A DNA stretch of 64,000 bases from Stutzerimonas stutzeri (GTDB taxonomy: Bacteria > Pseudomonadota > Gammaproteobacteria > Pseudomonadales > Pseudomonadaceae). Position 1 is the first letter of the stretch, and each line of letters begins with the position of its first letter. The notes beneath the pieces were generated by a model. It was not told where the DNA came from. It worked only from the letters and a program-made list of their open reading frames with translations, and did no database searches. This document shows, in pieces, positions 1 through 19,472 of the stretch. The position numbers and the translations under genes are program-made. The stretch is from NCBI RefSeq assembly GCF_000219605.1, contig NC_015740.1, forward strand, positions 3,968,001 to 4,032,000, in the 5' to 3' direction.

Positions 1-1
1 C

Positions 2-472
2 GGCATCGCCTATGTGCCGCAGGGGCGCGAGATCTTCGGCCGCCTGACCGTCGAGGAAAACCTGCTGATGGGCCTGTCCCGTTTCAGCGCCAGGGAAGCC
101 AAGGAAGTACCCCAGTTCATCTACGAGCTGTTCCCGGTTTTGCAGGAAATGAAGCACCGCCGCGGCGGCGACCTCTCCGGCGGCCAGCAACAGCAGCTCG
201 CCATCGGCCGAGCGCTGGCGAGCAAGCCGCGCCTGTTGATCCTCGATGAACCCACCGAAGGCATCCAGCCCTCGGTGATCAAGGAGATCGGCGCGGTGAT
301 CAAGAAGCTCGCGGCCCGCGGCGACATGGCGATCCTCCTGGTGGAGCAGTTCTACGACTTCGCCGCCGAACTGGCCGACCAGTACCTGGTGATGAGCCGC
401 GGCGAGATCATCCAGCAGGGCCGCGGCGAAAACATGGCCGCCGAGGGTGTGCAACGCCTGGTGGCGATCTAG
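2..472 (+). CDS. urtE: Urea ABC transporter ATP-binding protein UrtE, 3' part
   Basis: This is the last 156 residues of an ABC ATPase whose start lies before the window. The visible part has the signature motif LSGGQQQ, Walker B with LLILDEPTEGIQPS, and the ILLVEQ switch region usual in LivF/UrtE-type ATPases. The phrase TEGIQPS is typical of UrtE, one of the two ATPases of the high-affinity urea importer UrtABCDE, which acts at the inner membrane. The urease genes downstream support urea as the substrate. The Walker A motif is outside the window. A branched-chain amino acid LivF is the alternative but is less likely in this context. Confidence 0.9.
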   Translation, partial: GIAYVPQGREIFGRLTVEENLLMGLSRFSAREAKEVPQFIYELFPVLQEMKHRRGGDLSGGQQQQLAIGRALASKPRLLILDEPTEGIQPSVIKEIGAVIKKLAARGDMAILLVEQFYDFAAELADQYLVMSRGEIIQQGRGENMAAEGVQRLVAI

Positions 473-482
473 CCTTGCTGCA

Positions 483-500
483 GCGCCCCCACGGGGGCGC
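483..500 (+). terminator. GC-rich hairpin after urtE
   Basis: GCGCCCCC and GGGGGCGC form an 8-bp perfect inverted repeat just after the urtE stop. No T-run follows, so it may be a weak terminator or an mRNA 3'-end stabiliser rather than a classical intrinsic terminator. Confidence 0.5.
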
Positions 501-508
501 CTGATCGG

Positions 509-547
509 TGTCAATGTCCGGCTCTCCCGCCGGGCCGATGATTGACA
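509..547 (+). promoter_or_regulatory. Inverted repeat in leader of the P-type ATPase fusion gene
   Basis: TGTCAAT (509-515) and ATTGACA (541-547) are perfect inverted arms, and between them CCGGC and GCCGG can also pair. The structure ends about 28 bp before the start of the ATPase fusion gene, so it could be an operator or a leader RNA structure. Function is inferred only from position. Confidence 0.35.
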
Positions 548-575
548 GCGTTGGCGCCAGCAGGGGGTGCACGGC

Positions 576-3500: not shown

Positions 3501-4124
3501 CGTACCTTCGCCAACACGCTGAAGTACATCTACCTGACCACCAGCGCCAACTTCGGCAACATGATCAGCATGGCCGTGGCCTCGTTCTTCCTGCCCTTCC
3601 TGCCGCTGCTGGCCAAGCAGATCCTGCTCAACAACTTTCTCTCCGACATCCCGGCCATCGGCATCGCCGGTGACCGCGTCGATGCCGACTGGTCACGCAC
3701 GCCGCATCGCTGGGACATCGGCGAGGTGCGCCGCTTCATGATCCTGTTCGGCCTGATCAGCTCGGCCTTCGATCTGCTCACCTTCGGCGTGCTGCTGTAC
3801 CTGGTGGGCGAGCAACCGGAGCTGTTTCGCAGCGGCTGGTTCGTCGAATCGCTGATCACCGAACTCGCCATCATCTTTGTGGTGCGCACGCACAAGCCGT
3901 TCTACCGCAGCCGGCCGGGGCGCTTCCTGCTCGTCAGTTCACTGCTCATCGCGCTGCTGACCGTGCTGCTGCCCTACACGCCGGTGGGCGGCTGGTTCGC
4001 CCTGCAGCCACTGCCGGCCACGGTGCTCGGGGCGGTTCTGCTGATCACGCTGCTCTATGCGGCCTGTTCGGAATGGACCAAGCAGCGCTTCTTCGCCCGG
4101 CTCGGCGCATCCCGTCAGCCCTGA
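576..4124 (+). CDS. Flippase-like (LPG-synthase TM) domain fused to MgtA-type P-type ATPase
   Basis: A 1182-residue membrane protein with two parts. Residues 1 to about 340 are a multi-helix domain with the PGGLGAFE motif seen in the UPF0104/lysylphosphatidylglycerol-synthase membrane family. From about 345 to the end it is a P-type ATPase: TGE loop (LLTGETF), phosphorylation motif DKTGTLT with D662, hinge GDGINDAP (926-933), and an M4 motif GLSPELLP that matches MgtA-type Mg2+ importers (family IIIB). The C-terminal RRFMILFG and SGWFVESL segments are also MgtA-like. ATG at 576 is chosen because AGGGGG lies 8 nt upstream; GTG at 567 is the alternative. Ordinary MgtA is about 900 residues and lacks the first domain. 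Substrate and the role of the N-terminal half are not known. It separates urtE from ureD, but nothing in it links it to urea. Confidence 0.88.
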
Positions 4125-4181
4125 GCAAGAGCGCAGCAGGCGCACCACGAAAGGGCGTAGCGAACCGGGCGGCAGCAGATC

Positions 4182-4196
4182 GCACCGTAACGGTGC
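4182..4196. promoter_or_regulatory. NtrC-type binding site upstream of ureD
   Basis: GCACCGTAACGGTGC is a perfect 7-bp inverted repeat around one base. It fits the NtrC enhancer consensus GCAC-N7-GTGC. Its centre (4189) is 76 bp upstream of the GG of a sigma-54 promoter. The same 15 bases recur upstream of ureE with the same spacing. Confidence 0.75.
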
Positions 4197-4263
4197 ATAT
4201 CCCCACGGGTCTCGTCGTCGACGAGGCCTCACACGCCCCGAAGCTGCGCATACCGTTGGGTGG

Positions 4264-4279
4264 AGGCACGACTATTGCT
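4264..4279 (+). promoter_or_regulatory. Sigma-54 (-24/-12) promoter of ureD
   Basis: AGGCACGACTATTGCT matches the RpoN consensus TGGCACG-N4-TTGCW at all but the first position, with GG (4265-4266) and GC (4277-4278) exactly 10 bases apart. The predicted transcript start is near 4290, about 23 bp before the ureD ATG. It would make ureD and the following urease genes dependent on sigma-54 and NtrC, that is, on nitrogen limitation. Confidence 0.75.
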
Positions 4280-4312
4280 GTCTGCCCAGTCAACTACCAC
4301 CGGCAGCCGCGC

Positions 4313-5146
4313 ATGACCGTTCTGACTCACCCCTTCACCCCGCACTGGCAGGCCGAGCTCGAGCTCGGCTATACCCGCATCGGCGACGCGACGCGCCCGG
4401 TGCTGCGCCGCCATAGCGGACCGCTACGGGTGCAGAAGCATCTGTATCCCGAAGGGTCGGAAGTCTGCCAGCACATCATCGTCCACCCCCCGGGCGGCAT
4501 CGCCGGCGGGGATCGGCTGGACATCAGCGTCACGCTCGGCCCCGGCGCCTGGGCGCAGCTGACCAGCCCTGGTGCAGCCAAGTGGTATCGCGCCGCCAGC
4601 CCGGCCTTTCAGGACCTGCAACTGCGCGTCGAAGCCGGTGCCACGCTGGAATGGCTGCCGCAGGAGACCATCGTCTATTCCGCGGCTCAGGCCGAGCTGA
4701 ACACTCGCATCGAGCTGCACGGCGACGCCCGGCTGTTCTACTGGGACATCGTCGCCCTCGGCCGGCCGGCGGCAGGCGAGCGCTTCGACGCCGGGCATTT
4801 CCAGGCGCGCCTGGATATCCGTCGCGACGACCGGCTGATCTGGCACGAGCGCCAGCGCATCGCCGGCGCCGATGCGTTGCTCGACTCACCGATAGGCCTC
4901 GACGGGCGTTCGGTGTTCGCGACCCTCATCGCCAGCGGCGAGCTCGACGCGGACCTGCTGGAACGCTGCCGTGAACTGCCCAGCCGCGTGCGCGGTGACC
5001 TGACGCAACTGCCGGGGCTCATCGTGGCGCGCTGTCTGGCCGACGAGGCGCTGCACGCCCGTGCCTGGCTGATCGACCTGTGGCGGCTGTTGCGCCCCGC
5101 ACTGCTGGGCCGCGAAGCGGTACCGCCGCGAATCTGGAGTACCTGA
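4313..5146 (+). CDS. ureD: Urease accessory protein UreD
   Basis: A 277-residue UreD/UreH-family protein, the scaffold that binds apo-urease and recruits UreF and UreG during nickel insertion. Family features include HHIIHP-like text ([15 protein letters not shown]), [11 protein letters not shown], and the WLPQETIVY segment. The reading frame stays open about 240 bp further upstream, but that part contains the sigma-54 promoter and has no UreD similarity, so ATG at 4313 (start MTVLTHPF) is preferred. It is the first gene of the structural urease block, and 140 bp separate it from ureA. Confidence 0.93.
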
Positions 5147-5243
5147 ATGATCGGTGGGCACGGCTGCGCCGCTGCCCTCCCTACGCCGGCGCGCCTGCGT
5201 GCACGTCGCCCTGAACAACGCTGCGTGGTCTCGACCACCGGCC

Positions 5244-5275
5244 GGTGGATACGAAGAGCGACATCCACCCTACGA
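5244..5275. repeat. Short palindromic repeat between ureD and ureA
   Basis: GGTGGAT (5244-5250) and ATCCACC (5263-5269) form a hairpin followed by CTACG. It is a degenerate relative of the GTAGGGTGG...CCACCCTAC element found between ureB and ureC. It probably represents a REP-like intergenic repeat. Confidence 0.5.
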
Positions 5276-5286
5276 CTGGAGCGGTT

Positions 5287-5589
5287 ATGGATCTGTCACC
5301 AAGAGAGAAGGACAAGCTGCTGATCTTCACCGCCGGCCTGGTGGCCGAGCGCCGGCTGGCCCGCGGTGTGAAGCTCAACTACCCGGAGGCCATGGCCTAC
5401 ATCTCCGCCGCGCTGCTCGAAGGCGCGCGCGACGGCCAGACGGTCGCCGAGCTGATGCACTACGGCACCACCCTGCTCAGCCGCGAGCAGGTGATGGAAG
5501 GCGTGCCCGAGATGATTCCGGAAATCCAGGTCGAGGCGACCTTCCCGGACGGCACCAAGCTGGTCACGGTGCATCAACCAATCGCCTGA
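5287..5589 (+). CDS. ureA: Urease gamma subunit
   Basis: A 100-residue protein beginning [12 protein letters not shown] and containing [19 protein letters not shown] and the [18 protein letters not shown] end, all typical of UreA. It forms the (alpha-beta-gamma)3 urease trimer in the cytoplasm with UreB and UreC, which hydrolyses urea to ammonia and carbamate. ATG at 5287 has GGAGCG just upstream; the frame opens 14 codons earlier but those have no family similarity. Length equals the usual 100 residues. Confidence 0.97.
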
Positions 5590-5645
5590 AATATCGGTCA
5601 ATGTCTACTGCCCACGACCTTGAACCGTTCTTGAAGGAAACCAAC

Positions 5646-6155
5646 GTGCAGATACGCGACGCCCTGGACACCGACCTCGCAGGCATCCTGCGGATCTACA
5701 ACGATGCCGTGCAGAACAGCACGGCAATCTGGAACGACCGGATCGTCGACCTCGACAACCGCCGCGCCTGGCTGGCCGAACGCCACGATCAGGGTTACCC
5801 GGTGCTGGTGGCCATCGACGAGCTGGGCCGCGTGGCCGGCTATGCCTCCTTCGGCCCCTGGCGCCCCCACGACGGCTTTCGTCATACCGTGGAGAACTCG
5901 GTCTACGTCAGCCCCGACCATCGCGGCAGCGGCATCGGCCGCAGCCTGATGAAGGCACTGATCGAGCGCGCCCGCATGCTCGACAAGCATGTGATGGTTG
6001 CCTTCATCGAAAGCGAGAACCGCGCCTCGGTGCATATGCACCAGCAACTGGGCTTCATCCATGTCGGCCAGATGCGCCAGGTCGGCTGCAAGTTCGGCCG
6101 CTGGCTGGACCTGACCATGATGCAACTGACCCTGAACAGGACATCGAAACCATGA
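5646..6155 (+). CDS. GNAT acetyltransferase, phosphinothricin/methionine sulfone type
   Basis: A 169-residue GNAT protein starting [11 protein letters not shown], with the acetyl-CoA loop [14 protein letters not shown] and the late [15 protein letters not shown] segment found in phosphinothricin/methionine-sulfoximine N-acetyltransferases. GTG at 5646 follows AAGGAAA at good spacing; an ATG at 5601 in the same frame has no Shine-Dalgarno. It lies between ureA and ureB, and its stop overlaps the ureB start by 4 bp, so it is translated with urease. The same placement is known in P. aeruginosa (PA4866). It likely detoxifies glutamine-synthetase inhibitors or related amino acid analogues; it is not a urease subunit. 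Confidence 0.9.
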
Positions 6156-6457
6156 TTCCCGGCGAATACCAGATCCAGGACGGCGACATCGAGCTCAACG
6201 CCGGCCGCCGCACCCTGACCCTCTGCGTGGCCAACAGCGGCGACCGACCGATTCAGGTCGGTTCGCACTACCACTTCTTCGAAACCAACGACGCGCTCAC
6301 CTTCGATCGCACCGCCTCGCGCGGCATGCGCCTGAACATCCCGGCCGGCACCGCGGTGCGCTTCGAACCGGGCCAGAGCCGCGAGGTGGAGCTGGTCGAG
6401 CTGGCCGGCGAGCGCCGGGTGTTCGGCTTTGCCGGGCGGGTAATGGGCGCGCTCTAG
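6152..6457 (+). CDS. ureB: Urease beta subunit
   Basis: A 101-residue UreB: MIPGEYQI at the start, [11 protein letters not shown] and [16 protein letters not shown] in the middle, and a GFAGRVMG end. It packs against UreC in the urease trimer. It starts inside the stop of the acetyltransferase gene (ATGA overlap), indicating translational coupling. 120 bp with a palindromic repeat separate it from ureC. Confidence 0.97.
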
Positions 6458-6485
6458 GGCACAGCCGCAAGCGACAAGCAAGCTT

Positions 6486-6561
6486 CGTAGGGTGGAAAAC
6501 GCCGAAGGCTTTTCCACCACCCAGATTGCCGGTGGACAAGCTTCGCGTTGTCCACCCTACG
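6486..6561. repeat. Compound palindromic repeat between ureB and ureC
   Basis: Outer arms CGTAGGGTGGA (6486-6496) and TCCACCCTACG (6551-6561) are perfect inverted repeats. Inside are two more hairpins: GGTGGAAAA with TTTTCCACC (6491-6518) and GGTGGACAA with TTGTCCACC (6531-6556). The layout of two adjacent hairpins is that of REP/BIME-type mobile palindromes. It may attenuate or stabilise the ureB-ureC mRNA. Confidence 0.7.
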
Positions 6562-6577
6562 GACAGGATGAGATGCA

Positions 6578-8278
<1,701 letters not shown>

Positions 8279-8321
8279 TCTTCACGGAAAGCGCGGCAGC
8301 CGACAGGCCGCAGCGCCAACG

Positions 8322-8355
8322 AAAAGCCCAGGCTTATCCGCAAGCCTGGGCTTTT
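8322..8355 (+). terminator. Intrinsic terminator after ureC
   Basis: AAAAGCCCAGGCTT and AAGCCTGGGCTTTT form a 14-bp perfect stem with a 6-base loop ending in a T-run. It closes the ureDABC transcription unit. Confidence 0.85.
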
Positions 8356-8390
8356 CATATCCGTGCCCCCGCTCCCGGCCGACACTGATG

Positions 8391-8405
8391 GCACCACCTT
8401 GGTGC
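8391..8405. promoter_or_regulatory. NtrC-type binding site upstream of NCS1 permease gene
   Basis: GCACCACCTTGGTGC has perfect 6-bp arms (GCACCA/TGGTGC) around three bases, a full match to the NtrC consensus. It lies about 200 bp upstream of a weaker -24/-12-like sequence. Between ureC and the permease this and the two sites below are the only signals seen in the 367-bp gap besides the terminator. Confidence 0.65.
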
Positions 8406-8487
8406 GCTACATCTTTTGATGTGCATACCCGCGATGCTTCCGCAAAGTCGACGGCAATGAATTTCTGATCTGAAATTCGCATCAATC

Positions 8488-8497
8488 TTGTATACAA
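8488..8497. promoter_or_regulatory. TTGTATACAA palindrome, candidate GntR-family operator
   Basis: TTGTATACAA is a perfect 10-bp palindrome in an AT-rich part of an otherwise GC-rich gap, and a half-like GCATACAAAA recurs at 8608-8617. Such TTGTATACAA boxes are typical GntR-family operators. No GntR gene is adjacent, so the regulator would be elsewhere. Confidence 0.45.
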
Positions 8498-8594
8498 ATT
8501 TTCCTGCACGATGCCTCGGAGCGCCTAGACTCGAGGCATCGGGCGCAACCGCCTCAGTGATCGTCGCCTGATAATTCGCGAGCTCTGTCGTACG

Positions 8595-8610
8595 CGGAAC
8601 AAGAACTGCA
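8595..8610 (+). promoter_or_regulatory. Possible sigma-54 promoter of NCS1 permease
   Basis: GG (8596-8597) and GC (8608-8609) are 10 bases apart and the -12 part reads TGCA, but several other consensus bases are missing. It sits about 25 bp from a plausible transcript start and 36 bp from the ATG. The NtrC-type site upstream raises its plausibility. Confidence 0.4.
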
Positions 8611-8645
8611 TACAAAAATCCACAGTCTTGCTCAGAGCGCATCCC

Positions 8646-10118
8646 ATGAATCACGACGACTTTCAGATCAAGCAGATCGACCCCAGTCTCTATAACGCGG
8701 ATCTCGCGCCGCTCCCCCCGGCTGAACGCAAATGGGGCTGGTTCGAGATCTTCAACGTGTGGTCCAACGACATACAGAGTCTGTTCGGCTACACGCTGGC
8801 CGCCACGCTTTTCATCAGCTACGGGCTCAATGGCTGGGCGGTTCTGACGGGTATCGTCCTGGCCGGCTTTATCGTGATGGGGCTGGTGCACCTCACCGGA
8901 AAACCGAGTGTGAAGTACGGCATTCCGTTCCCCGTCATGGCGCGGGCGAGCATGGGCGTACGCGGCGCTAACTTCCCGGCGGTCGTCCGCGGCATCGTCG
9001 CGATCTTCTGGTATGGCGTGCAGACCTACTTTGCTTCGACTGCCGTTGCGCTGCTGCTCCGGGCCTTCATGGGCACCGATCCACAGGCGGCGACACTGCT
9101 CGGCCTGACTGCCATCGACTGGGCCGCCTACGTGATGGTCTGCGTGTTTCAGGTAGCGCTGTTCGTTCGCGGCGTCGACTGGGTAACGCGCTTTCTCAAC
9201 TGGGCCGGCCCGCTAGTCTACCTGGTGATGATCGTGCTGATGATCGCCATCTGGTATCAGGCCGGCCCGAGCCTGCTGGGCGCCCTTGGCGACATCTTCA
9301 GCGGCAGCGGCGAACATGCCGGCGGTCCGATTGCAGCATTCGCGGCAGTGGTCGGCACCATGGTCGCCTACTTCGCCGCGGTGGTAATCAATTACGGCGA
9401 TTTCGCCCGCTTCGTGAAAGATGAGCGGCAGATGCGCATCGGTAATTTCTTCGGCCTGCCTGTGAGCCTGGCGGTTTTCTCGATGATCGCGCTGGTGATC
9501 ACCGCCGGCACCGTGGTCGTATTCGGAGAGACGCTGACCAACCCGACCGACATCGTGGCACGCATCGACAATGTCACCCTGACGGTGGTCGCCGCGATCA
9601 CCTTCTTCGCCGCTACGGTGGGCATCAACCTGGTCGCCAACTTCATCCCTCCGGCCTACGACATCGCCAACCTGGCCCCCGCCAGGATCAGCGCCCGGAC
9701 CGGTGGCTTCATCACTGCCGCCATCGCCTTTTTCATCGGCGCGCTGTGGGTGGCCTTCATCAGCGAAGTGGGCATCGCCGCCTTTGTCGATACGCTGGGC
9801 GCGGCGCTGGCGCCGCTGTACGGCATCATCGTGGCGGACTACTACCTGGTCCGGCGTCAGCGTCTGGATGTACAGCAGCTGTTCTGCGCCGAACGTACCG
9901 GCATCTACCACTTCAACGCTGGCTGGAACCGCAAGGCAATGATCGCGTTCGGTGTGAGTGCCGTGTTCTCCGTGGCCTCGGTATGGACGCCCGGACTGGA
10001 GAGCCTGTCCGGTTTCGCCTGGCTGCTGGGCGCACTGTTTGGCGGGACGCTGCACTATGTGCTGATGCGCAGGCAGCCCCTTCTTGTCACCCCGGTACAA
10101 CCCGCGCCGCTGGGGTGA
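8646..10118 (+). CDS. NCS1-family nucleobase/hydantoin/allantoin permease
   Basis: A 490-residue, roughly 12-helix permease of the nucleobase-cation-symport-1 family. The N-terminal DPSLYNADLAP, the NVWSNDIQSLFGY segment of helix 1, and WYGVQTYFAS in helix 3 match NCS1 members such as Mhp1, in which the corresponding W and Q contact the substrate. Exact substrate cannot be read from sequence; hydantoin, allantoin, uracil or cytosine are possible. Location between two urease blocks and an NtrC-type site favour a nitrogen source, perhaps one degraded to urea. ATG at 8646 is preferred over an upstream in-frame codon because MNHDDFQIKQ begins the family-like part. Confidence 0.88.
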   Translation: MNHDDFQIKQIDPSLYNADLAPLPPAERKWGWFEIFNVWSNDIQSLFGYTLAATLFISYGLNGWAVLTGIVLAGFIVMGLVHLTGKPSVKYGIPFPVMARASMGVRGANFPAVVRGIVAIFWYGVQTYFASTAVALLLRAFMGTDPQAATLLGLTAIDWAAYVMVCVFQVALFVRGVDWVTRFLNWAGPLVYLVMIVLMIAIWYQAGPSLLGALGDIFSGSGEHAGGPIAAFAAVVGTMVAYFAAVVINYGDFARFVKDERQMRIGNFFGLPVSLAVFSMIALVITAGTVVVFGETLTNPTDIVARIDNVTLTVVAAITFFAATVGINLVANFIPPAYDIANLAPARISARTGGFITAAIAFFIGALWVAFISEVGIAAFVDTLGAALAPLYGIIVADYYLVRRQRLDVQQLFCAERTGIYHFNAGWNRKAMIAFGVSAVFSVASVWTPGLESLSGFAWLLGALFGGTLHYVLMRRQPLLVTPVQPAPLG

Positions 10119-10134
10119 GCGTCGCTGCAAACGA

Positions 10135-10165
10135 GGCCGGGCATGCTAGAGTGTCCGGCCTTTTT
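10135..10165 (+). terminator. Intrinsic terminator after NCS1 permease
   Basis: GGCCGGGCA pairs with TGTCCGGCC (one G-T) and is followed by TTTTT. It lies between the permease and the histidine kinase gene, so the kinase may need its own promoter or read-through. Confidence 0.8.
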
Positions 10166-10184
10166 CATCGCTCAGGGCCTTGCG

Positions 10185-11369
10185 ATGGTGCGAACCCTCC
10201 TCGACGACCTGCTCACGGTGCAGCGTATCAGTGCCGTGCCGGCCATCCTGCAGGTCCTCAGCGAAACGACCGGCCTGCGCTTCGCTGCAGTTGCCCGCGT
10301 TACCGAGACGAACTGGACCGCCTGTGCCGTGTTCGATCGTATCGAGTTCGGCCTGAAGGTCGGCGGGGAACTCGACGTGACCACCACCCTGTGCAGCGAG
10401 ATTCACGCCTCCCATCAGCCGATCATCATCAGCCAGGTCAGCGCCGATCCGGACTACTGCCACCATCACACGCCGCAGATCTATGGGTTCGAAAGCTACA
10501 TCTCGGTCCCGGTGCTGCGCGCCGATGGCAGCTTCTTCGGCACGCTCTGCGCGCTGGACCCGCTACCCCGCGACCTGTCCAGCCCGGCGACGCGCGCAAT
10601 GTTCGAATCCTTCGCCCGTCTGCTGACCCTGCAGCTCGATGCCGAGGAGCAGCAGCAGAGCACGCGCGCCGCGCTGGCCGACGAGCGCCTCACCGGCCAC
10701 CAGCGCGAACAGTTCATCGCCCTGCTCGGCCACGACCTGCGTACCCCGCTGGCCTCGATCCAGGCGGCCAGCGACCTGCTGCTGCGCCGCTCGACGGAAG
10801 CCGGCACCCAGCAACTGGCCGAGCACGTGCGCACCGCCAGCCAGCGTGCCTCGCGCATGGTGGATGACCTGCTGGATTTCGCCCGCGGTCAGCTGGGCAA
10901 CGGCATTCCGCTGAACTGGACGACGCCACCGGAGCTCAATCGCACCCTGCGCCAGGTGACCGACGAGCTGCGCAATGCGCATCCGCGACGGGTGCTGCTC
11001 GAGCGGCTGTCGCCGCTGGAGATGTTCGAGTGCGATCCGGACCGCATCGCGCAGCTGCTCGCCAACCTGATCACCAACGCGCTGCATCACGGCGCCAGCA
11101 CCGGCCCGGTGATCGTGACGGCGCAGACCGACAACGGGCATTTCGAACTCGCCGTGCACAACCGCGGCACGCCGATTGCGGCCGAACACCTCGAGCGGCT
11201 GTTCCAGCCCTACTGGCAGGACCAGGGAGGCTCCAGCCGAGGAGGCCTGGGGCTCGGCCTGTTCATCGTCGACCAGATCGCCCGTGCCCACGGCGGCAGC
11301 ATGCGTGTCAGTTCCAGTGCCGAAGCGGGCACCACCTTCACTTTCTCGATGCCGATCCGCCGCGATTGA
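10185..11369 (+). CDS. GAF-domain sensor histidine kinase
   Basis: A 394-residue soluble histidine kinase. Residues about 15-150 form a GAF domain (SYISVPVLRADGSFFGTLCALD is typical). The dimerisation/phosphorylation helix has the H-box LLGHDLRTPLASI with H183. The ATPase domain shows the N-box NLITNALHHG and G-box GGLGLGLFIVDQIA. No transmembrane segment or receiver domain is visible and no response regulator gene is adjacent, so it is an orphan kinase. ATG at 10185 is chosen; the frame opens 14 codons earlier but across the terminator. Confidence 0.9.
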   Translation: MVRTLLDDLLTVQRISAVPAILQVLSETTGLRFAAVARVTETNWTACAVFDRIEFGLKVGGELDVTTTLCSEIHASHQPIIISQVSADPDYCHHHTPQIYGFESYISVPVLRADGSFFGTLCALDPLPRDLSSPATRAMFESFARLLTLQLDAEEQQQSTRAALADERLTGHQREQFIALLGHDLRTPLASIQAASDLLLRRSTEAGTQQLAEHVRTASQRASRMVDDLLDFARGQLGNGIPLNWTTPPELNRTLRQVTDELRNAHPRRVLLERLSPLEMFECDPDRIAQLLANLITNALHHGASTGPVIVTAQTDNGHFELAVHNRGTPIAAEHLERLFQPYWQDQGGSSRGGLGLGLFIVDQIARAHGGSMRVSSSAEAGTTFTFSMPIRRD

Positions 11370-11636
11370 TCAACGCAGCTGGCTGTCCTTGCTGCCGCGA
11401 CGGTTGTAGCCGCTGAACCTGGCATCTTCCTTGTCCTGCGCCGCCTGGCACTTGATGCACAGGCGTACACCCGGCACCGCCTGACGGCGCGCCTCGGGAA
11501 TCTTCTCTCCGCATTCTTCGCAGTGCTTCAGGCTTTCGCCCCGAGCGAGTCGGCTGCGGGCGCGCTGTACGGCATCTTCGACGGTGCTGTCGATCTGCTC
11601 CTGTACCGCGCCATCTCCTGCCCAACCGGTGGCCAT
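11370..11636 (-). CDS. DksA/TraR-type C4 zinc-finger protein (YbiI-like)
   Basis: An 88-residue protein with a DksA/TraR C4 zinc finger: CEECGEKIPEARRQAVPGVRLCIKC (cysteines in two CxxC pairs about 18 residues apart). The length and the ending match the small YbiI group, which lacks DksA's long coiled coil. GAGGAGG stands 7 nt before the ATG. Convergent with the histidine kinase, with no spacer between the stops. Members of this group may bind RNA polymerase; the function here is not known. Confidence 0.85.
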   Translation of the reverse strand: MATGWAGDGAVQEQIDSTVEDAVQRARSRLARGESLKHCEECGEKIPEARRQAVPGVRLCIKCQAAQDKEDARFSGYNRRGSKDSQLR

Positions 11637-11934
11637 CGCAACCTCCTCGGCCCGCCGGGCCAGTTCTTGGGTGTGCCTGCATTGGAACGGTATTCGCGCC
11701 GGGGGTTTCCAAAAAGCCGCGCCGTGAACCGCCGGATTTCCGTTAGGCCACGCACCGGCGCCGCCTGTCGATCCGCTGGCGCCAAATCGACGAGCGGGGC
11801 TCGCAGCCCGACCAGCTTGACTATCCTCGGCCCGGTTCAGGCAAGCCGTGGCAGCCAGCAGCGCTCCGGTCCGGTCTTGCCGCAGGTGGTCGTCACCGGT
11901 CGGCCGTTCAGTCTTCTCACCAGTGAAGCAGCAT

Positions 11935-12654
11935 ATGCACAGACGATATCTGCTCGCGCTGGCCATCGCGCTCGGCGGCTGCGCCAGCCAACCTGAAGTG
12001 GTGGAACGCGAGGTCGGCCAGTTCGACCTCAAGCTCGGCACCGCACCGACTCGCAGCATGGCCCAGGGTCTGGTGCAGCCCACCACGGCCGGCACCTTTC
12101 GTGGCGGCCTCGATCTGACCCACGCCAGTGGCGTCTACCTCGGCCAGTGGTCGCCCAGCGTCGGACTGCTCGACGGCAGTCAGCTGGAGCTCAACAGCTA
12201 TGTCGGTTACGCCCAGCCGCGGCTCGACGACTCGCTGGGTTACGAGCTCGGCGTGATCCGCTATAGCTTTCCCGAGCTGCAGGCCAGGAACCGCGAGGAG
12301 TACTACGCCGGCGTCAACCTGGGCAGCAGCCGGCTGGGTGGCGCGCTGAGCAGTTCGCTGGGGCGGACCGACAGCACGCTGTTTCTCGACCTGGGTGCGC
12401 TGCGGCCGTTCGACGTTGGGGTACGCCTGAAGTACGCCAGCCACACCCTGGACAGCCCGCTGTACTACCCCGGCGGCAGCGTGCGGGTGTTCAACGACTG
12501 GTCTCTGAACCTGTCGCGGCGCCTGCTCGGCATGCAGCTGGATCTGTCCTACACCGATACCAGCCTGCGCGGCGCGCAATGTGGCGTCTATTCCGGGCAG
12601 AACACCTATTGCGAAGGGTTCATGATGTTCAAGGCCGAACGCTCGTTCTTCTAG
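11935..12654 (+). CDS. Putative outer-membrane lipoprotein, TorF-like porin family
   Basis: A 239-residue exported protein. A short signal peptide ends in the lipobox ALGGC, followed by a region rich in alternating beta-strand patterns (GTFRGGLDLTHASGVYLGQW, ELNSYVGY, EYYAGVNLGSS) and ending in aromatic residues FF, as in outer-membrane beta-barrels. The GVYLGQW-type segment is seen in the TorF family of putative porins. Nothing nearby points to its substrate. The preceding 298 bp hold only the promoter regions of this gene and of the divergent zinc-finger gene. Confidence 0.65.
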   Translation: MHRRYLLALAIALGGCASQPEVVEREVGQFDLKLGTAPTRSMAQGLVQPTTAGTFRGGLDLTHASGVYLGQWSPSVGLLDGSQLELNSYVGYAQPRLDDSLGYELGVIRYSFPELQARNREEYYAGVNLGSSRLGGALSSSLGRTDSTLFLDLGALRPFDVGVRLKYASHTLDSPLYYPGGSVRVFNDWSLNLSRRLLGMQLDLSYTDTSLRGAQCGVYSGQNTYCEGFMMFKAERSFF

Positions 12655-12675
12655 CGTCGCCGACGTCTGCCGGCG

Positions 12676-13830
12676 CTATCCCTGTCGAAAGCGCAGCTGC
12701 GCATTGCCGACCGCCAGCAGGAAGGCCGCTGCGGCGAAGCCGTAGAGCAGCCCGAGATTGCCATCCTGAAACAGCCAGGAGCCCAGCACCGGGCCGGTGG
12801 CCATGCCCATGAAGCGGAAGAAGTTGTAGCTGCCCACAGCGGTGGCGCGGTTGTGCTGGTACAGGTCCATCAGCAGACTGGTCTGCACCGGCAGCGACAG
12901 CCCGAGAAACAGCCCGAACGCCGTTACCGCCACCACCAGCGCGACCAGCGACAGAGGCGCCACCGCCACAAACAGCAGCAGGCTGAGCGCATTGAGCAGC
13001 GCCGTGACCAGCAGCATCGGCCGCGGTCGCCAATGCCCGAGCAGCCGACCGCCGACGTAGCTGCCGATCACCACGGCCACCGACAGCGGCAGAAACACCA
13101 GTCCTTTTTCGCTGGCGCTCAGGCCGTAGACCGCATCCAGCACCCGCGGCATGAACACCAGGTAGTTGTAGAAGGCGTAGTACTGCACGAAGCTCAGCAG
13201 CATGATCGCCAGCCCTTGGCGGTTGCCCAGTACCTCCAGGTACTGCGCCGGATGAAAGGCGCGCGGCTCCCCGGCCGGCCGGGTTTCCCGCAGCCAGATG
13301 GCGTTGCTCAGCAGCGCGGCCGCGCCGACGAGGGCCAGCAGCAGGAACACGTAGTGGAAGTCCAGATGCTCGCCGACGAAACCGCCCACCACCGGGCCGA
13401 CCACCGGCCCCAGCGCCACCATCATCTGGAACGAACCCATCGCCCGGCCGCGCGCGGCGCCTTCGAAGCGATCGCCGATCACCGTGACCGCCACCACCGC
13501 TCCGGCGGCGATGCCGACCGCCTGCAGCGCGCGGAACGCCAGCAGTGTCTCGATGCGATCGGCCAGGAAACAGCCCAGGGAAGCGACGATATAGATTGCC
13601 AAGCCGGCCAGCAGGGTGCGCTTGCGCCCACTGCGATCCACCAGCGGCCCGTAGATGATCTGCATGAAGGCCAGCACCAGCGTGAAGATCGAGATGCTGA
13701 GGTTGATCAGAAACGGCGTGGTGCGCAGCGCACCACCGAGCTCCGGCAGGATCGGCGCATACACGGTCTGAGTGAACGGCCCGAGAAAGGCGGCGAAGGC
13801 GACCATGAAGGTCAACAGGCGTGGGCTCAT
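12676..13830 (-). CDS. MFS transporter (drug/metabolite efflux type)
   Basis: A 384-residue, 12-helix major facilitator protein. It has the loop 2-3 motif GPLVDRSGRKR and the motif-C-like GPVVGPVVGGF in helix 5, marking it as a drug/H+ antiporter-type efflux protein. ATG at 13830 follows GGAGCC; the frame runs 10 codons further upstream without family similarity. It is followed, on the same strand, downstream of the PEP-mutase-family gene. Substrate unknown. Confidence 0.88.
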   Translation of the reverse strand: MSPRLLTFMVAFAAFLGPFTQTVYAPILPELGGALRTTPFLINLSISIFTLVLAFMQIIYGPLVDRSGRKRTLLAGLAIYIVASLGCFLADRIETLLAFRALQAVGIAAGAVVAVTVIGDRFEGAARGRAMGSFQMMVALGPVVGPVVGGFVGEHLDFHYVFLLLALVGAAALLSNAIWLRETRPAGEPRAFHPAQYLEVLGNRQGLAIMLLSFVQYYAFYNYLVFMPRVLDAVYGLSASEKGLVFLPLSVAVVIGSYVGGRLLGHWRPRPMLLVTALLNALSLLLFVAVAPLSLVALVVAVTAFGLFLGLSLPVQTSLLMDLYQHNRATAVGSYNFFRFMGMATGPVLGSWLFQDGNLGLLYGFAAAAFLLAVGNAQLRFRQG

Positions 13831-13895
13831 CAAGGCTCCAGTGGCGGCGGTGTTGCCCACCCGGGCAGCGATGGCTGTCCGGGCGGGTCAGCGGC

Positions 13896-14759
13896 TTACT
13901 CCTTGACCTGCATGTACTCCTCGGCCCAGACGACATACTCGTCCGCGGTGGAATACTTGACCGACAACTGCGAGGCGTTGAGGTCCAGGGCGTCGACCTG
14001 ACGCTGCTCGCGCAGGCAGTCGTAGGTCGCCTTGATCGCTGCGAAGTAGGCTGCGTGGCCGTTGACCACGATGCGCACGCCGAGCGCGGCCAGCCGCGCG
14101 TTGTCGCGCAGGTTGGGGTTGCCGTAGGTGACCAGCATAAGCGGCTTGCTGAGCTGGCTGGCAATGCTTTCCAGATGATCGAAATCCTCGATGCCGACCA
14201 GGCAGATGGCATCGGCACCGGCCTTTTCGTAGGCCTGGGCGCGCGCAATGACTTCCTCGAAGCCGATCACGCCGGCGTTGGTGCGACCGATGATGGCCAT
14301 CTCCGGATCGACTCGCGCCTCCAGCGCCGCGCGAATCTTGCCGACGGCCTCGAACATGCCGATGAGGTCGGTGGAGCGGCGACCGAATTTGGGTGGCAGC
14401 AGGGTGTCCTCGATGGTCAGCGCGGAAATCCCGGCGCGTTCCAGTTCGGAAACGGTGCGCATCACGTTGAGCGCGTTGCCGTAACCGTGGTCGGCATCGG
14501 CCAGCACCGGCAACTGGGCGACGCGGCAGATGCGCGTGGCCTGCTCGACGAACTCGCTCAAGGTGATGAGGTTGAAGTCCGGCGCGGCCAGCACCTGCAG
14601 CGAGGCCACCGAGCCACCGAGAATGCCGACCTCGAAACCGAGATCGGCGGCGATGCGTGCCGACATCGGGTCGAACACCGACGCCGTGTGGAAGCAGCGG
14701 TCGGCGTTGAGCAGCTCGCGGAAGTTGCGGCGCAGGTCATGATGAGAGAGTCGCGGCAT
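13896..14759 (-). CDS. Oxaloacetate decarboxylase, PEP mutase/isocitrate lyase superfamily (PA4872-like)
   Basis: A 287-residue member of the isocitrate lyase/PEP mutase superfamily. [18 protein letters not shown] carries the metal-binding aspartates and the segment [11 protein letters not shown] the gating loop. The length and sequence fit P. aeruginosa PA4872, described as an oxaloacetate decarboxylase, which also lies near urease in that species. It should convert oxaloacetate to pyruvate and CO2 with Mg2+. GGAGCC lies before the ATG at 14759. Confidence 0.85.
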
Positions 14760-14870
14760 ATAGGCTCCGTTTGTTGTATGCGTTGCACGCAAGGGTCGAA
14801 TCGCCCTGTCTGTTCATTTCAATATCGATGCTGAGAAGCTGTTCGGCCATCCGAATGGCACATCTGCCGT

Positions 14871-15755
14871 TTATCCGCCGGCGGCGGGCTGGCGGCGCTG
14901 CACATAGGCCATGCACAGCCCGCTGGCGATGATCACCGCCATGCCGATCAGGGCGCCGGCATCCGGTGCGTGATCGAAGGCGAGGTAACCCACCACCCCG
15001 GCGAACACGATCTGGCTGTAGGTGAACGGCGCCAGCGTCGCCGCGCTGGCGAAGCGGAAGGCGTTGGTCAGCAGCAGATGGCCGAGCATGGCCATGCCAC
15101 CGAGGGCGCCCATCAGCAGCGCGTCGTGCAGCGTCGGCGTGCGCCAGTTGAAGATCACCAGCACGCTCAGGGCCACGCAGCCGACCAGGCTGGTCAGGTA
15201 GTTGCTGGTCACCGGATGGTCGGTTCCGGCCAGGCGCCGCGTGATCAGCTGATAGACCGTGAACGACAGCGCCGCGCCCAGCGGCAGCAGCGCTGCCGGA
15301 GTGAACAATGCCGACCCCGGACGAACGATGATCAGCACGCCGAGCAGACCGAACCCCACCGCGATCCACTGGCTGGGATTGATTCGCTCACCGAGCAGCG
15401 CCGAGGCGACGGTCACCAGCACCGGCGTCAGGAAGATCACCGCGGTCGCCTCGGCCAGCGGGATGAAATGCAGGCCGTTGATGAATAGCAGGCTGACGCT
15501 GACCAGGCTCAATCCGCGCAGCAGCTGAGGCCAGGGCCGCAGGGTGCGGAACACGCGCTGCCCCATGCGCGGCACGAACAGCGCCGTCATCAGCACCGTC
15601 TGCGCCACGTAGCGGGCCCAGATGACCAGAAAGACGGGGTAGATCTCCAAAAGGTGTTTGGCCAACCCGTCATGGCTGGCCAGCAGCAGACCCGACAGCA
15701 GTATCAGCAGAACGCCATAGAGCGGGTGGTGATGATCGTTCAACGCTCGCCTCAC
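14871..15755 (-). CDS. EamA/DMT-family transporter
   Basis: A 294-residue protein with ten predicted helices arranged as two EamA repeats (LLILLSGLLLASHDGLAKHL in the first and LLPLGAALSFTVYQLITRRL opening the second). It is an inner-membrane drug/metabolite exporter or importer; the substrate cannot be told. The start at 15755 is GTG with no clear Shine-Dalgarno, so a slightly shorter protein is possible. Confidence 0.85.
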   Translation of the reverse strand: MRRALNDHHHPLYGVLLILLSGLLLASHDGLAKHLLEIYPVFLVIWARYVAQTVLMTALFVPRMGQRVFRTLRPWPQLLRGLSLVSVSLLFINGLHFIPLAEATAVIFLTPVLVTVASALLGERINPSQWIAVGFGLLGVLIIVRPGSALFTPAALLPLGAALSFTVYQLITRRLAGTDHPVTSNYLTSLVGCVALSVLVIFNWRTPTLHDALLMGALGGMAMLGHLLLTNAFRFASAATLAPFTYSQIVFAGVVGYLAFDHAPDAGALIGMAVIIASGLCMAYVQRRQPAAGG

Positions 15756-15926
15756 TTGTTAGCAGACTAAGCATTATGCCTGCCAAGGCCTGCGGATGCT
15801 CCATCAATCGGCTGACTGGTGCTGCCACGGCGACGAGCCGGCTGGCCAGTTGACACCGGCTGACCTCGGACCTGTACACCCGCCCCGCAGGCCGTCCGCT
15901 GGCAAGCAAAACACCGCCGTTTCGCG

Positions 15927-15932
15927 TATAAT
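15927..15932 (+). promoter_or_regulatory. -10 element TATAAT upstream of GNAT gene
   Basis: TATAAT followed by CGCCGGC lies 55 bp upstream of the acetyltransferase ATG. The -35 region is poor. The same TATAATCGCCGG stretch precedes miaB. Confidence 0.5.
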
Positions 15933-15986
15933 CGCCGGCTTTTTGCCGGGCCGCGTGGCGTTTCGCGGCATTCGAGTGTAGTCGTG

Positions 15987-16490
15987 ATGTACCAGTTGAG
16001 AGCGATGCGGGAGCGCGATATCCCTGCCGTCCTGGCGATCCAGGAAGAATCCTATGCTGCCGAGGTACTGGAAGACGAAGCGGTGATTCGCTCGCGCCTG
16101 GCGGCCTGCCCGCACCTGGCCTGGGTAGCCGAGGACGCCGAGGGGGTCTGCGGCTACCTGTTCGCCTACCCGTCCCGCCTAGGCAAGGTCACGCCGCTGG
16201 ACGGTGAATTCCACAGTGACGGTGAAGCCGATTGTCTGTACCTGCATGATCTGGCCGTGGCCCGTCGCGCCGCCGGTCGCGGCATCGGTCCGGCGCTGGT
16301 ACGCCACAACCTGAAGCAGGCCAGCAGCATCAGGCTGCGCTATTCGGCGCTGGTCTCGGTACAGGATTCGACCGGCTTCTGGTCGCGCCTGGGCTACCAG
16401 GCCCATGACGAACTCGAGCCGCCACAGGCCGGCAACCTGGCTAGCTACCAGATCCCGGCGGTGTACATGGTGCGCAGCCTGCACCAGTAA
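15987..16490 (+). CDS. GNAT-family N-acetyltransferase
   Basis: A 167-residue GNAT protein. MYQLRAMRERDIPAVLAIQEESY is the usual first strand and helix; YLHDLAVARRAAGRGIGPALV is the acetyl-CoA binding loop, and DSTGFWSRLGYQ the closing strand. ATG at 15987 or the overlapping GTG at 15984 may start it. Substrate unknown. It ends 31 bp before the NtrC-type site of the ureE module and is not clearly part of that operon. Confidence 0.88.
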   Translation: MYQLRAMRERDIPAVLAIQEESYAAEVLEDEAVIRSRLAACPHLAWVAEDAEGVCGYLFAYPSRLGKVTPLDGEFHSDGEADCLYLHDLAVARRAAGRGIGPALVRHNLKQASSIRLRYSALVSVQDSTGFWSRLGYQAHDELEPPQAGNLASYQIPAVYMVRSLHQ

Positions 16491-16521
16491 GGCGCACGCC
16501 TGCGTCACGACCGCACCGCGC

Positions 16522-16536
16522 GCACCGTAACGGTGC
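16522..16536. promoter_or_regulatory. NtrC-type binding site upstream of ureE
   Basis: GCACCGTAACGGTGC, identical to the site before ureD and here extended to 8-bp arms (C...G). The centre (16529) is 76 bp from the GG of the sigma-54 promoter below, the same spacing as at ureD. Confidence 0.75.
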
Positions 16537-16602
16537 GCGACAGGCCCCAATATCTGGCACAAAGATCCCTGTAGCCGCCACCAGCCCTGTCCGGACGCCC
16601 GA

Positions 16603-16619
16603 TTGGCAAGCCCCTTGCT
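16603..16619 (+). promoter_or_regulatory. Sigma-54 (-24/-12) promoter of ureE
   Basis: TTGGCAAGCCCCTTGCT matches YTGGCACG-N4-TTGCW with one mismatch; GG (16605-16606) and GC (16617-16618) are exactly 10 bases apart. The expected transcript start is near 16630, about 24 bp before the ureE ATG. Confidence 0.8.
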
Positions 16620-16653
16620 CTGCTTCGGCAAACGATCCGACCGGAACAATGCA

Positions 16654-17154
16654 ATGCTGGTGATTCGCCAACGCATCGCGGCCCGCCCTGAATGGCAGGC
16701 CGAACTCGAACTGACCTACGACGCGCGCAGCAAGAGTCGCCTGCGCTGCTTCAGTACCAGCGGCGAAGACGTCGGCCTGTTTCTCGAACGCGGCCAGCCG
16801 CCGCTCGCCGACGGTGAGTGCCTGCTGGCAGCCGATGGCCGTGTGGTGCGCGTGCGCGCCCGCCCCGAACAGCTGTTGCACGTCACCTGCGCCAGCGCCT
16901 TCGAGCTGACCCGCGCGGCCTACCACCTGGGCAACCGCCATGTCGCCCTGCAGGTCGGCGACGGCTGGCTGCGCCTGCTCGACGACTATGTACTCAAGGA
17001 CATGCTCTTGCAGCTGGGCGCCCAGGTCGAACACATCGAGGCGCCCTTCCAGCCGGAGCATGGCGCCTACGGTGGCGGCCATCATCATTCCCACGCCGGC
17101 GAGGCGGAGTTCAGCTACGCACCGCGCCTGCACCAGTTCGGCGTACGCCCGTGA
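16654..17154 (+). CDS. ureE: Urease accessory protein UreE (nickel chaperone)
   Basis: A 166-residue UreE. The N-terminal peptide-binding domain begins MLVIRQRI; the C-terminal metal-binding domain includes AYHLGNRHVALQVG with the conserved dimer-interface histidine, and the tail GGGHHHSH is His-rich for nickel storage or delivery to UreG. ATG at 16654 is used; the frame extends upstream through the sigma-54 promoter but without similarity. It overlaps ureF by 4 bp. Confidence 0.95.
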   Translation: MLVIRQRIAARPEWQAELELTYDARSKSRLRCFSTSGEDVGLFLERGQPPLADGECLLAADGRVVRVRARPEQLLHVTCASAFELTRAAYHLGNRHVALQVGDGWLRLLDDYVLKDMLLQLGAQVEHIEAPFQPEHGAYGGGHHHSHAGEAEFSYAPRLHQFGVRP

Positions 17155-17843
17155 ACGCGACGGGCGCGCCCGTCCCGGCCTGGGCCCTGCTCCGGCTGGC
17201 CAGCCCGCAGCTGCCGATCGGCGGCTACAGCTATTCCCAGGGGCTGGAGATGGCGGTGGAGAACGGCCAGGTGAACGACCCGGACAGCGCCCGGCGTTGG
17301 CTGGAGGATCAACTGCTGCTCAACCTTGCCCGCTTTGAGGCGCCACTGCTGCTCGTGCATTGCCAAGCGGCGGCACAGGACGACTGGCCGCGCCTGTTGC
17401 ATCTGGCTGCCGAACACCGCGCCAGCCGCGAAACCCGCGAGCTGCAGCTGGAAAGCCGGCAGATGGGCTATTCCCTCGCGCAGCTGCTCGACGGCCTGCC
17501 GGAACTCGACCAGCCTGGGCGTGACTGCCTGGCCGCGGCCGACGAGCCCGGCTTGGCCCTGGCCTGGGCACTGGCCGCCCGCGCCTGGCGGATCGAACCC
17601 GCCGATGCACTGGCCGCCTGGCTGTGGGGCTGGCTGGAAAATCAGCTGGCGGTGCTGATGAAGACCCTGCCGCTGGGGCAGCAGGCGGCGCAGCGGTTGA
17701 CCTCGCAGCTGTTGCCGGTCCTGAGCCAGGCGCAGCGGGAAGCGAGTCAGCTGCCGGAAGCGGCCTGGGGCAGCGCGCCGTTTGGATTGGTGCTGACCAG
17801 CATGGCGCATGAGCGGCAGTACAGTCGGTTGTTTAGGTCATGA
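17151..17843 (+). CDS. ureF: Urease accessory protein UreF
   Basis: A 230-residue all-helical Ure[22 protein letters not shown] near the start is the family hallmark, and [17 protein letters not shown] the central helix. It bridges UreD and UreG in the activation complex. GTG at 17151 overlaps the ureE stop (GTGA), showing coupled translation. A 413-bp structured spacer follows before ureG. Confidence 0.94.
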
Positions 17844-17872
17844 GGTTCACAAGCTTTCAGGCAACTCGGACC

Positions 17873-18128
17873 CCAACCCCCGTCAGGAGGCCGAGCGCAG
17901 TTGCCGTGGAGGGGGTTGAGCGGCATGGATGCCGCGCGAGCTGCGATGGGCCAGGGATGGCCCTTCGCAGCGTGCCTCCGGAGCGGCGATGGAGTGAGGG
18001 CACCCTTCGCGCAGCGAAGGGCCGGATGCCGGGGTCGCCTTCTCTTTGGTTACTTTCTCTTGGCGAGACAAGAGAAAGTGACGCGCCGTGCAAGGCGCAA
18101 CCAGTAGTCCCAGCCGAGGAAAGCGCGG
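17873..18128. repeat. Structured intergenic repeat between ureF and ureG
   Basis: The 413-bp ureF-ureG gap (17844-18256) holds no gene but at least four hairpins: CAACCCCC/GGGGGTTG (17874-17918), CTGCGA...CGCAG (17941-17970), CCCTTCGC/GCGAAGGG (18003-18021) and the perfect 11-bp ACTTTCTCTTG/CAAGAGAAAGT (18052-18079). The last block, with TTGGTTACTTTCTCTTG, resembles an intergenic repeat common in Pseudomonas and relatives. Right boundary is uncertain. Spurious small peptides in it (ending like QEKVTRR) are not counted as genes. Confidence 0.6.
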
Positions 18129-18256
18129 CGCCTGACAACACTGCGTACGCCACCATCGATCACCCAAGGATTTCTATTCCCCCCTGCCCCAATCGGCAGC
18201 AGCACCCTTCGCATCAACCCCGAGGCACCCACACTGCCTCCCAGAGGAGACCACCC

Positions 18257-18871
18257 ATGAGCACACAACCCCTGCGCGTCGGCATTGGCGGGCCGGTCGG
18301 TTCCGGCAAGACCGCCCTGACCCTCGCCCTGTGCCAGGCCCTGCGCGACCGCTACAACCTCGCCGTGGTGACCAACGACATCTACACCCAGGAAGACGCC
18401 CAGTTCCTCGTGCGTAACGAGGCCCTGGCGCCCGAGCGGATCATCGGCGTGGAAACCGGCGGCTGTCCGCACACGGCGATTCGCGAGGACGCCTCGATCA
18501 ACCTCGAGGCCGTGGAGCAGCTCAACCGGCGCTTTCCCGGCCTGGATCTGATCATCGTCGAGTCCGGCGGCGACAACCTCTCGGCCACCTTCAGCCCGGA
18601 GCTGTCTGACCTGACCATCTACGTGATCGACGTGTCCGCCGGCGACAAGCTGCCGCGCAAGGGCGGCCCGGGCATCTGCAAGTCCGACCTGCTGGTGATC
18701 AACAAGATCGACCTCGCACCCATGGTCGGTGCCTCGCTGGAGGTAATGGATCGCGACGCCCGCAAGATGCGCGGCGAGCGCCCGTTCGTCTTCAGCAACC
18801 AGAAGGTCGGCCAGGGTCTCGAGGAGATCATCGCCTTCATCGAAAAACAGGGAATGCTCAGCGCCGCCTGA
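18257..18871 (+). CDS. ureG: Urease accessory GTPase UreG
   Basis: A 204-residue SIMIBI-class GTPase. P-loop GGPVGSGKT (11-19), the metal motif CPH in [15 protein letters not shown], and the NKID guanine motif are all present. It hydrolyses GTP to drive nickel transfer into urease with UreD, UreF and UreE. GAGGAGA lies before ATG 18257. Although separated from ureF by the structured repeat, it is in the same direction and is followed 29 bp later by the nickel permease. Confidence 0.97.
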
Positions 18872-18899: not shown

Positions 18900-19472
18900 A
18901 TGAACCTGCGCAAACCACTGCTCGCCACCCTTCTGCTGCTCAGCCCGACCCTGGCACTGGCACACCCCGGCCACGATCACGCCGGCGTGCTGTCCGGTAT
19001 CGCTCACCCCGTCTTCGGTCTCGATCACCTGCTGGCGATGGTCGCCGTCGGGCTATGGGCGGCCCAGCAGACCGGCAAGGCGCGTTGGGCGCTGCCGCTG
19101 ATCTTCGTCGCCACTATGCTGCTGGGCGGCCTCGCCGGCTTTGCCGGTATCGAGATGCCGCTGATGGAAACCGGCATTGCCGGCTCGGTATTCGCACTGG
19201 GCTTGCTGGTGGCACTGGCGGTACGTCCGCCTCTGCCGGTGGCCGCCCTGCTCACTGCGCTGTTCGCCATCAGCCACGGCGTCGCCCATGGCCTGGAACT
19301 GCCGGAGCTGTCCAGCCCGTGGGGTTATGCCGCCGGCTTCGTGCTGGCCACGGCCGCCCTGCACGCGGCCGGTTACGCAGCGGTGCGCTACCTGCCGCAG
19401 ACCGCCGCGCCGCTGGTGCGCATCGCCGGTGCCGCCTCGGCGCTGACCGGCGCCTGGCTGCTGGCCAGCTGA
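18900..19472 (+). CDS. ureJ: HupE/UreJ-family nickel permease
   Basis: A 190-residue membrane protein with a signal peptide followed by the HPGHDH histidine motif and about six to seven helices, including FGLDHLLAMVAVGLW, the HupE/UreJ signature. It is thought to import nickel for urease. AAGGAG stands before the ATG. It closes the ureEFGJ unit and is convergent with the DUF2789 gene. Confidence 0.88.
   Translation: MNLRKPLLATLLLLSPTLALAHPGHDHAGVLSGIAHPVFGLDHLLAMVAVGLWAAQQTGKARWALPLIFVATMLLGGLAGFAGIEMPLMETGIAGSVFALGLLVALAVRPPLPVAALLTALFAISHGVAHGLELPELSSPWGYAAGFVLATAALHAAGYAAVRYLPQTAAPLVRIAGAASALTGAWLLAS

Follow-up and report, generated by a model that had tools for sequence, protein, structure and literature searches.

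The urease genes of the window, by which we mean the whole stretch of 64,000 nucleotides of Stutzerimonas stutzeri DNA analyzed here, are preceded by two promoters with the architecture of NtrC-activated sigma-54 promoters, one upstream of ureD and one upstream of ureE. Each carries a pair of NtrC-type sites, and the two promoters share an identical 15-base palindrome at the same distance from the sigma-54 element. The explanation that we favor, with a probability of roughly 0.7, is that these are paired-site NtrC-sigma-54 promoters that were inherited separately, and that the exact match between them is mainly a coincidence.

Table 1. Urease genes and predicted control elements in the window.
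Feature	Sequence	Position	Strand	Basis or remark
Distal NtrC-like site, ureD promoter	GCACCACGAAAGGGC	4142..4156	+	2 mismatches; 40 bp upstream of proximal site
Proximal NtrC-type site, ureD promoter	GCACCGTAACGGTGC	4182..4196	+	Predicted from motif
Sigma-54 -24/-12 element of ureD	AGGCACGACTATTGCT	4264..4279	+	Exact GG-N10-GC
ureD, first gene of structural block		4313..5146	+	Pfam UreD in frame 4073-5146
ureC, last gene of structural block		6578..8278	+	Pfam Urease_alpha and Amidohydro_1
Distal NtrC-like site, ureE promoter	GCACCAGTAAGGCGC	16481..16495	+	1 mismatch; 41 bp upstream of proximal site
Proximal NtrC-type site, ureE promoter	GCACCGTAACGGTGC	16522..16536	+	Predicted from motif
Element between enhancer and promoter of ureE	GCCCCAATATCTGGCAC	16544..16560	+	Alignments of genus promoters
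Sigma-54 -24/-12 element of ureE	TGGCAAGCCCCTTGCT	16604..16619	+	Exact GG-N10-GC
ureE		16654..17154	+	Pfam UreE_N and UreE_C in frame 16603-17154
Open frame with ureF		16818..17843	+	Pfam UreF at residues 152-298; true start further in
Open frame with ureG		17840..18871	+	Pfam cobW/HypB/UreG; nucleotide-binding domain at residues 147-317
hupE/ureJ		18900..19472	+	Pfam HupE_UreJ

The palindrome at ureD and ureE is exactly the same sequence, and the distance from its center to the first G of the -24 GG was measured as 76 bp at both promoters (4189 to 4265 at ureD and 16529 to 16605 at ureE). In both respects the original prediction was borne out. The separation of about 8 kb that it gave fits the gap counted from the end of ureC (8278), but the two modules themselves lie 12.3 kb apart (4182 to 16522). 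Each enhancer is a pair of sites, a point absent from that prediction. Measured from the -24 GG, the sites are found at 76 and 116 bp for ureD and at 76 and 117 bp for ureE. The distal ureE site covers the stop codon (16488-16490) of the GNAT gene ahead of it, and a site of this type was found at 116-117 bp in close relatives. The two mismatches in the distal ureD site count against the strength of the pair model.

The motif GCACC-N5-GGTGC, which we take to be of the NtrC type, occurs three times in the window compared to 0.23 expected, and none of 100 shuffles reached three. Genome-wide there are 31 such sites, and the spacer GTAAC is found solely in the ureD and ureE pair. For the sigma-54 element the consensus TGGCAC-N5-TTGC was used. 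Allowing one mismatch, the plain consensus was matched nine times in the window against 8.58 expected, which is not above chance, and such matches are therefore weak evidence alone. With a consensus weighting of our own, only the ureD and ureE elements had a score of 20 or more when both strands of the window were searched; promoters of relatives were called at a score of at least 19. The composite pattern GCACC-N5-GGTGC-N(50-80)-GGCA-N6-TTGC was found exactly twice in the 4.55-Mb genome, both times at urease genes. It was matched in 24 of 56 genomes of the genus, while a reversed control pattern was matched in none of the 56.

By Pfam the structural block contains ureD, a GNAT gene and ureC, with ureA and ureB placed in between by position alone, and the accessory block contains ureE, ureF, ureG, and hupE/ureJ. 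Just upstream of ureD, positions 567-4124 form a single open frame with a lysylphosphatidylglycerol-synthase membrane domain and a P-type cation ATPase; this region is present in relative G025 and partly in G029 and G036, and no alignment was obtained there in G017, G007, and G031. Both NtrC (TIGR01818, 795 bits against a curated cut-off of 558.6) and RpoN (TIGR02395, 522 bits against 277.35) are encoded in the genome. With a sigma-54 element, upstream site pairs, both proteins and an architecture conserved among relatives (see below), these four features of an NtrC-activated sigma-54 promoter were found. Binding of the sites by another activator of the NtrC family would be very unlikely. The genome does hold further proteins of this family, all scoring below the NtrC cut-off, but the motif is presumably that of NtrC, and urease expression drops upon loss of ntrC or ntrBC in published mutants, as far as the accessible text of those reports goes.

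No sigma-70 promoter was found near ureE, and no terminator was called near its palindrome, in the interval 16250-16700. The latter result bears on a reading of this palindrome as a terminator of transcription, or an RNA hairpin, after the GNAT gene. The palindrome starts 32 bp past the end of the GNAT stop codon and in this strain folds into a GC-rich stem of 9 pairs, both of which would suit a hairpin. However, the folding is no better than that of shuffled versions, 23 of 200 of which do equally well (z -1.12), and some relatives have an altered left half (GCACT) with the right half unchanged. Based on the lack of a terminator call and the shuffle-level folding the hairpin was ruled out as a candidate, and we consider it extremely improbable.

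We compared 99 ureE and 98 ureD upstream regions. Distant matches to UreE and UreD were removed, for either search in 14 genomes that belong to other families of the order, and so were those in 12 and 13 genomes of the family and second weak matches within a genome. Two of the promoters kept were short at a contig edge (ureE of G013 and ureD of G110), and one stretch (L124), a repeat of region L092, was left out of the counts. Genomes G184-G189 of the genus were searched for the ureD block only, and of these the promoters were compared for G187 alone. Statements on spacing exclude promoters with a sigma-54 score below 19 (4 of 99 for ureE and 39 of 98 for ureD).

The sigma-54 element (score of at least 19) was present at ureE in 95 of 99 promoters (44 of 44 in the genus and 51 of 55 in other genera of the family). 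At ureD the numbers were 41 of 43 for the genus and 18 of 55 for the other genera. Within 58-160 bp, 34 of 44 ureE and 31 of 43 ureD promoters of the genus had an NtrC-like site with no more than one mismatch. Among 80 named ureE loci, 78 had the sigma-54 element, which was missing from two Azotobacter loci, and 38 had a site at 58-130 bp that deviated from the motif by no more than one base. Conservation of the palindrome near ureE had been proposed as a check on the original prediction; across the relatives an NtrC-type site near ureE was found to be conserved, but the exact palindrome was not.

Exact distances from site to promoter varied among relatives, and 18 of 44 ureE and 7 of 43 ureD promoters of the genus had a site at 74-77 bp with no more than one mismatch. 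When sites with up to two mismatches were counted, most ureD pairs were separated by 29-30 bp (22) or 40 bp (20), and the separations within ureE pairs were 15 bp (26), 30 bp (24), 41 bp (21), and 20 bp (8). The 15-bp separations come largely from ureE promoters in another genus of the family, such as L126, L127, and L129, where three abutting 15-bp NtrC-like units are located 76, 91, and 106 bp from the -24 GG; this set was present in 11 of 95 ureE promoters. Site-promoter distances from 108 promoters in 45 clusters suggested helical phasing, the best period being 10.5 bp with a resultant length of 0.36 (p 0.015 relative to uniform distances, period scanned). We do not use this as a main argument, because the signal is weak and shifts with the choice of cluster representatives.

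The claim that the structural and accessory blocks are controlled together agrees both with the conserved sigma-54 elements at ureE and ureD and with published mutants of relatives. In P. stutzeri A1501 an ntrC mutation lowers the ureE and ureC transcripts and abolishes growth on urea, and a putative NtrC site has been reported at ureE (PMC8443478). In P. aeruginosa PA14 the expression of ureD, ureA, ureB, ureC, ureE, ureF, and ureG is reduced in ntrBC mutants (PMC7214821). A survey of sigma-54 regulons also includes urease genes, predominantly of the alpha and beta classes (PMC12316311). All of this is taken from the accessible parts of the three papers. NtrC control of both urease blocks is thus sound and already in print. 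By analogy with these relatives, for which the dependence is published, the predicted sites in the window would be bound by NtrC and expression would depend on it.

Since the palindrome and the 76-bp spacing are the same and are oriented alike toward the gene, one promoter could have been copied in front of the other block, with only motif and spacing surviving. This was part of the original prediction, and little remains of it, since outside the motifs the two flanks are unrelated. Between site and promoter, ureD and ureE agree in register at 12 of 67 positions (local-alignment p 0.45 against shuffles), and upstream of the sites at 28 of 100 (p 0.65). These alignments are no better than those of shuffles and give no hint that the control region was copied. 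In addition, the ureD and ureE promoters of the window each align with their respective orthologues in the genus, no other of the 41 genomes of the genus with both sigma-54 promoters has this spacer at this distance, and the nearest relatives of the two regions differ. We assign duplication next to no probability.

The difference in nearest relatives was seen at several levels. UreD of the window was found to be closest to those of G025 (98%) and G029 (97%), while UreE is 98% identical to those of G017, G007, and several others, compared to 89% for G025 and 86% for G029. Positions 1-4000 of the window are 96-99% identical to G025 in every 500-bp bin and 96-100% identical to G029 where aligned. 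In contrast, rpoN of G025 and G029 is 82 and 83% identical to that of the window, and the aligned bins of these genomes at 12-17 kb are 73-87% identical. The ureD promoter has 205 of 212 bases in common with that of G029, and the ureE promoter 168 of 174 with that of G187, a genome that is 73% complete with 4% contamination. Neither of the two has the other promoter of the window: G029 ureE has no NtrC-like site with up to two mismatches, and G187 ureD has a different geometry, with sites at 121 and 150 bp and another at 14 bp. The palindrome GCACCGTAACGGTGC occurs singly in relatives, at ureD of G029 and at ureE of G036, G044, and G187. Judged from these sequence comparisons, the two promoters appear to have been inherited separately and to have different histories. 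This is to be read with some caution, as ureA-ureC are alike in many lineages, and the ends and direction of an exchanged tract are blurred by a 95-96% similarity to G017 of positions 1-470 and of about 7 kb before the window.

How far the identity goes beyond chance was assessed within and between genomes. Of the 41 genomes of the genus with both sigma-54 promoters, 24 had a site with at most one mismatch at both. The spacer was equal at ureD and ureE in two of the 41 (G000 and G016), the site distance in one (G000), and sequence and distance were exactly identical in one. The match is therefore mainly a coincidence on a preferred geometry. With the GCACC half-site only, the distance was the same in five of 41 genomes and differed by at most 1 bp in seven, so a position near 75 bp is common. 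Some observations do count against coincidence. In 206 ureD-ureE pairs of perfect sites taken from different genomes the spacer was shared in 5, the distance in 35, and both in only one, and in 1030 pairs of one-mismatch sites the numbers were 9, 63, and one. Moreover, the two urease promoters of G016 share one 17-mer, CGCACCATAAAGGTGCA, whose distance to the -24 GG is 98 bp at ureD (L120) and 102 bp at ureE (L111).

The original prediction also offered strong selection as an explanation. Selection might keep the two NtrC sites alike within each genome, for instance if both are tuned to the NtrC of the strain or must respond at an equal level of NtrC-P, with the window as an extreme case. This would fit the NtrC dependence of both blocks in published relatives, and G016 would be a second example. 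For one-mismatch sites the best spacer match between the two promoters averaged 2.62 of 5 within genomes compared to 2.18 for shuffled pairings (24 genomes, p 0.001). The resemblance held without the window (2.52 compared to 2.15, p 0.005) and after related promoters had been collapsed (median p 0.002-0.010 with 10-17 representatives), and it speaks both against pure coincidence and for co-selection. However, several mismatch thresholds were tried, and with two-mismatch sites the effect faded or disappeared (p 0.034 over the full set of 38 genomes, 0.091 without the window, and 0.08-0.22 after collapsing); perfect sites left four genomes and a p of 0.165. Equal distances were not in excess within genomes (one compared to 1.67 expected from shuffled pairings), relatives keep different geometries at the two genes (e.g., 97/137 or 122/151 bp at ureD and 75/116 bp at ureE), and the two window promoters differ in history. 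Strong selection in the original sense fits poorly with an identity kept so rarely, although the within-genome resemblance of spacers leaves room for some co-tuning. It could stem from base composition, from the NtrC preference of the strain, or from co-selection. Altogether we hold co-selection as the source of the match to be unlikely.

In relatives, the ureD promoters usually have a third NtrC-like site. Centered 10-14 bp upstream of the -24 GG and with up to two mismatches, it was present in 48 of the 59 ureD promoters with a sigma-54 element; by group, with 9-14 bp searched, it was found in 30 of 41 promoters of the genus and in all 18 others. It is of the GCACCGCNGTGGCGC type (e.g., L055, L051, and L052). 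None of the 95 ureE promoters with a sigma-54 element had such a site at 9-14 bp. In E. coli, low-affinity NtrC sites near the glnAp2 promoter have been proposed to act as a "governor" (PMC3870243, from the part of that paper accessible to us). By analogy we infer that the third ureD site may serve as a brake. The window promoters lack clear examples of weak NtrC sites of the glnAp2 governor type near the promoter. At ureD the best candidate at 9-14 bp has five mismatches, and a three-mismatch site is located at 23 bp; at ureE no site with up to two mismatches was found at 9-14 bp.

A more elaborate scenario can be built on this. The ureDABC genes of the family would normally be braked by a governor-like site that is absent from ureEFG, the lineage of the window would have swapped in a brake-less ureD promoter with the geometry of ureE through exchange of a urease tract, and the NtrC sites would be co-tuned in each genome. 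If the loss of the brake were real, both operons would rise together at high NtrC-P and the structural operon would no longer be capped. We look upon this scenario as speculative and rather improbable.

Two other elements were observed near the urease blocks. The element between enhancer and promoter of ureE was matched, as a loose pattern, in 35 of 44 ureE promoters of the genus and in none of the 41 ureD promoters of the genus with a sigma-54 element. Genome-wide, its pattern GCCCC-N6-GGCAC had 2 exact and 27 one-mismatch occurrences. Because this total of 29 is only about twice the 13 found with a reversed control, the case for a regulon motif is not clear. At 8391-8405 stands another NtrC-type site, GCACCACCTTGGTGC, the third of the window, 198 bp upstream of a weak sigma-54-like sequence, CGGAACAAGAACTGCA (8595-8610), which precedes a gene for a cytosine/purine-type permease and is identical in G017, G007, and G044. 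A site with at most one mismatch was found before the permease gene in three of four relatives checked. As a further sigma-54 target the site at 8391-8405 was rejected, since there is no strong sigma-54 element (best score 16.5).

In the reading that we prefer, that of separately inherited paired-site promoters, each palindrome would be the one of two paired NtrC enhancer sites that lies closer to the promoter. One pair would drive the structural block from ureD to ureC and the other the accessory block of ureE, ureF, ureG, and hupE, each through its own sigma-54 promoter. Going by what is known of the NtrC family, NtrC-P would bind each pair during nitrogen limitation, oligomerize, contact RNA polymerase with sigma-54 across the spacer of about 75 bp, and open both promoters together. 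The ureD and ureE promoters would be separate orthologous lineages with a shared preferred geometry rather than copies. That of ureD is probably part of a tract that was recently shared with lineages such as G025 and G029, and that of ureE probably belongs to the lineage of close relatives, G187 above all. The weak likeness of spacers within genomes may have helped the exact match to arise. More generally, two promoters of one pathway can come to be strikingly identical in sequence with no duplication involved, if independently evolved promoters with a shared preferred geometry are joined by gene exchange.

The enhancer sites of E. coli glnAp2 are spaced about 32 bp apart, compared to 40-41 bp for the pairs in the window. 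The resemblance to glnAp2, as described in the accessible part of its account, lies in a sigma-54 promoter acted upon by two enhancer sites upstream of it, and the downstream governor sites of glnAp2 resemble the third site that relatives have at ureD (PMC3870243). Unlike glnAp2, the window promoters have no clear governor-like site. P. stutzeri A1501 and P. aeruginosa PA14 have the same urease genes as the window, likewise split in two blocks. The accessible parts of those two accounts make no mention of site pairs, spacing, a site at ureD, or a comparison of one promoter with the other. To the NtrC control of split urease genes known from these strains, the present analysis adds a concrete anatomy: pairs of sites, their spacing, a possible brake at ureD, and a hint of co-tuned spacers.
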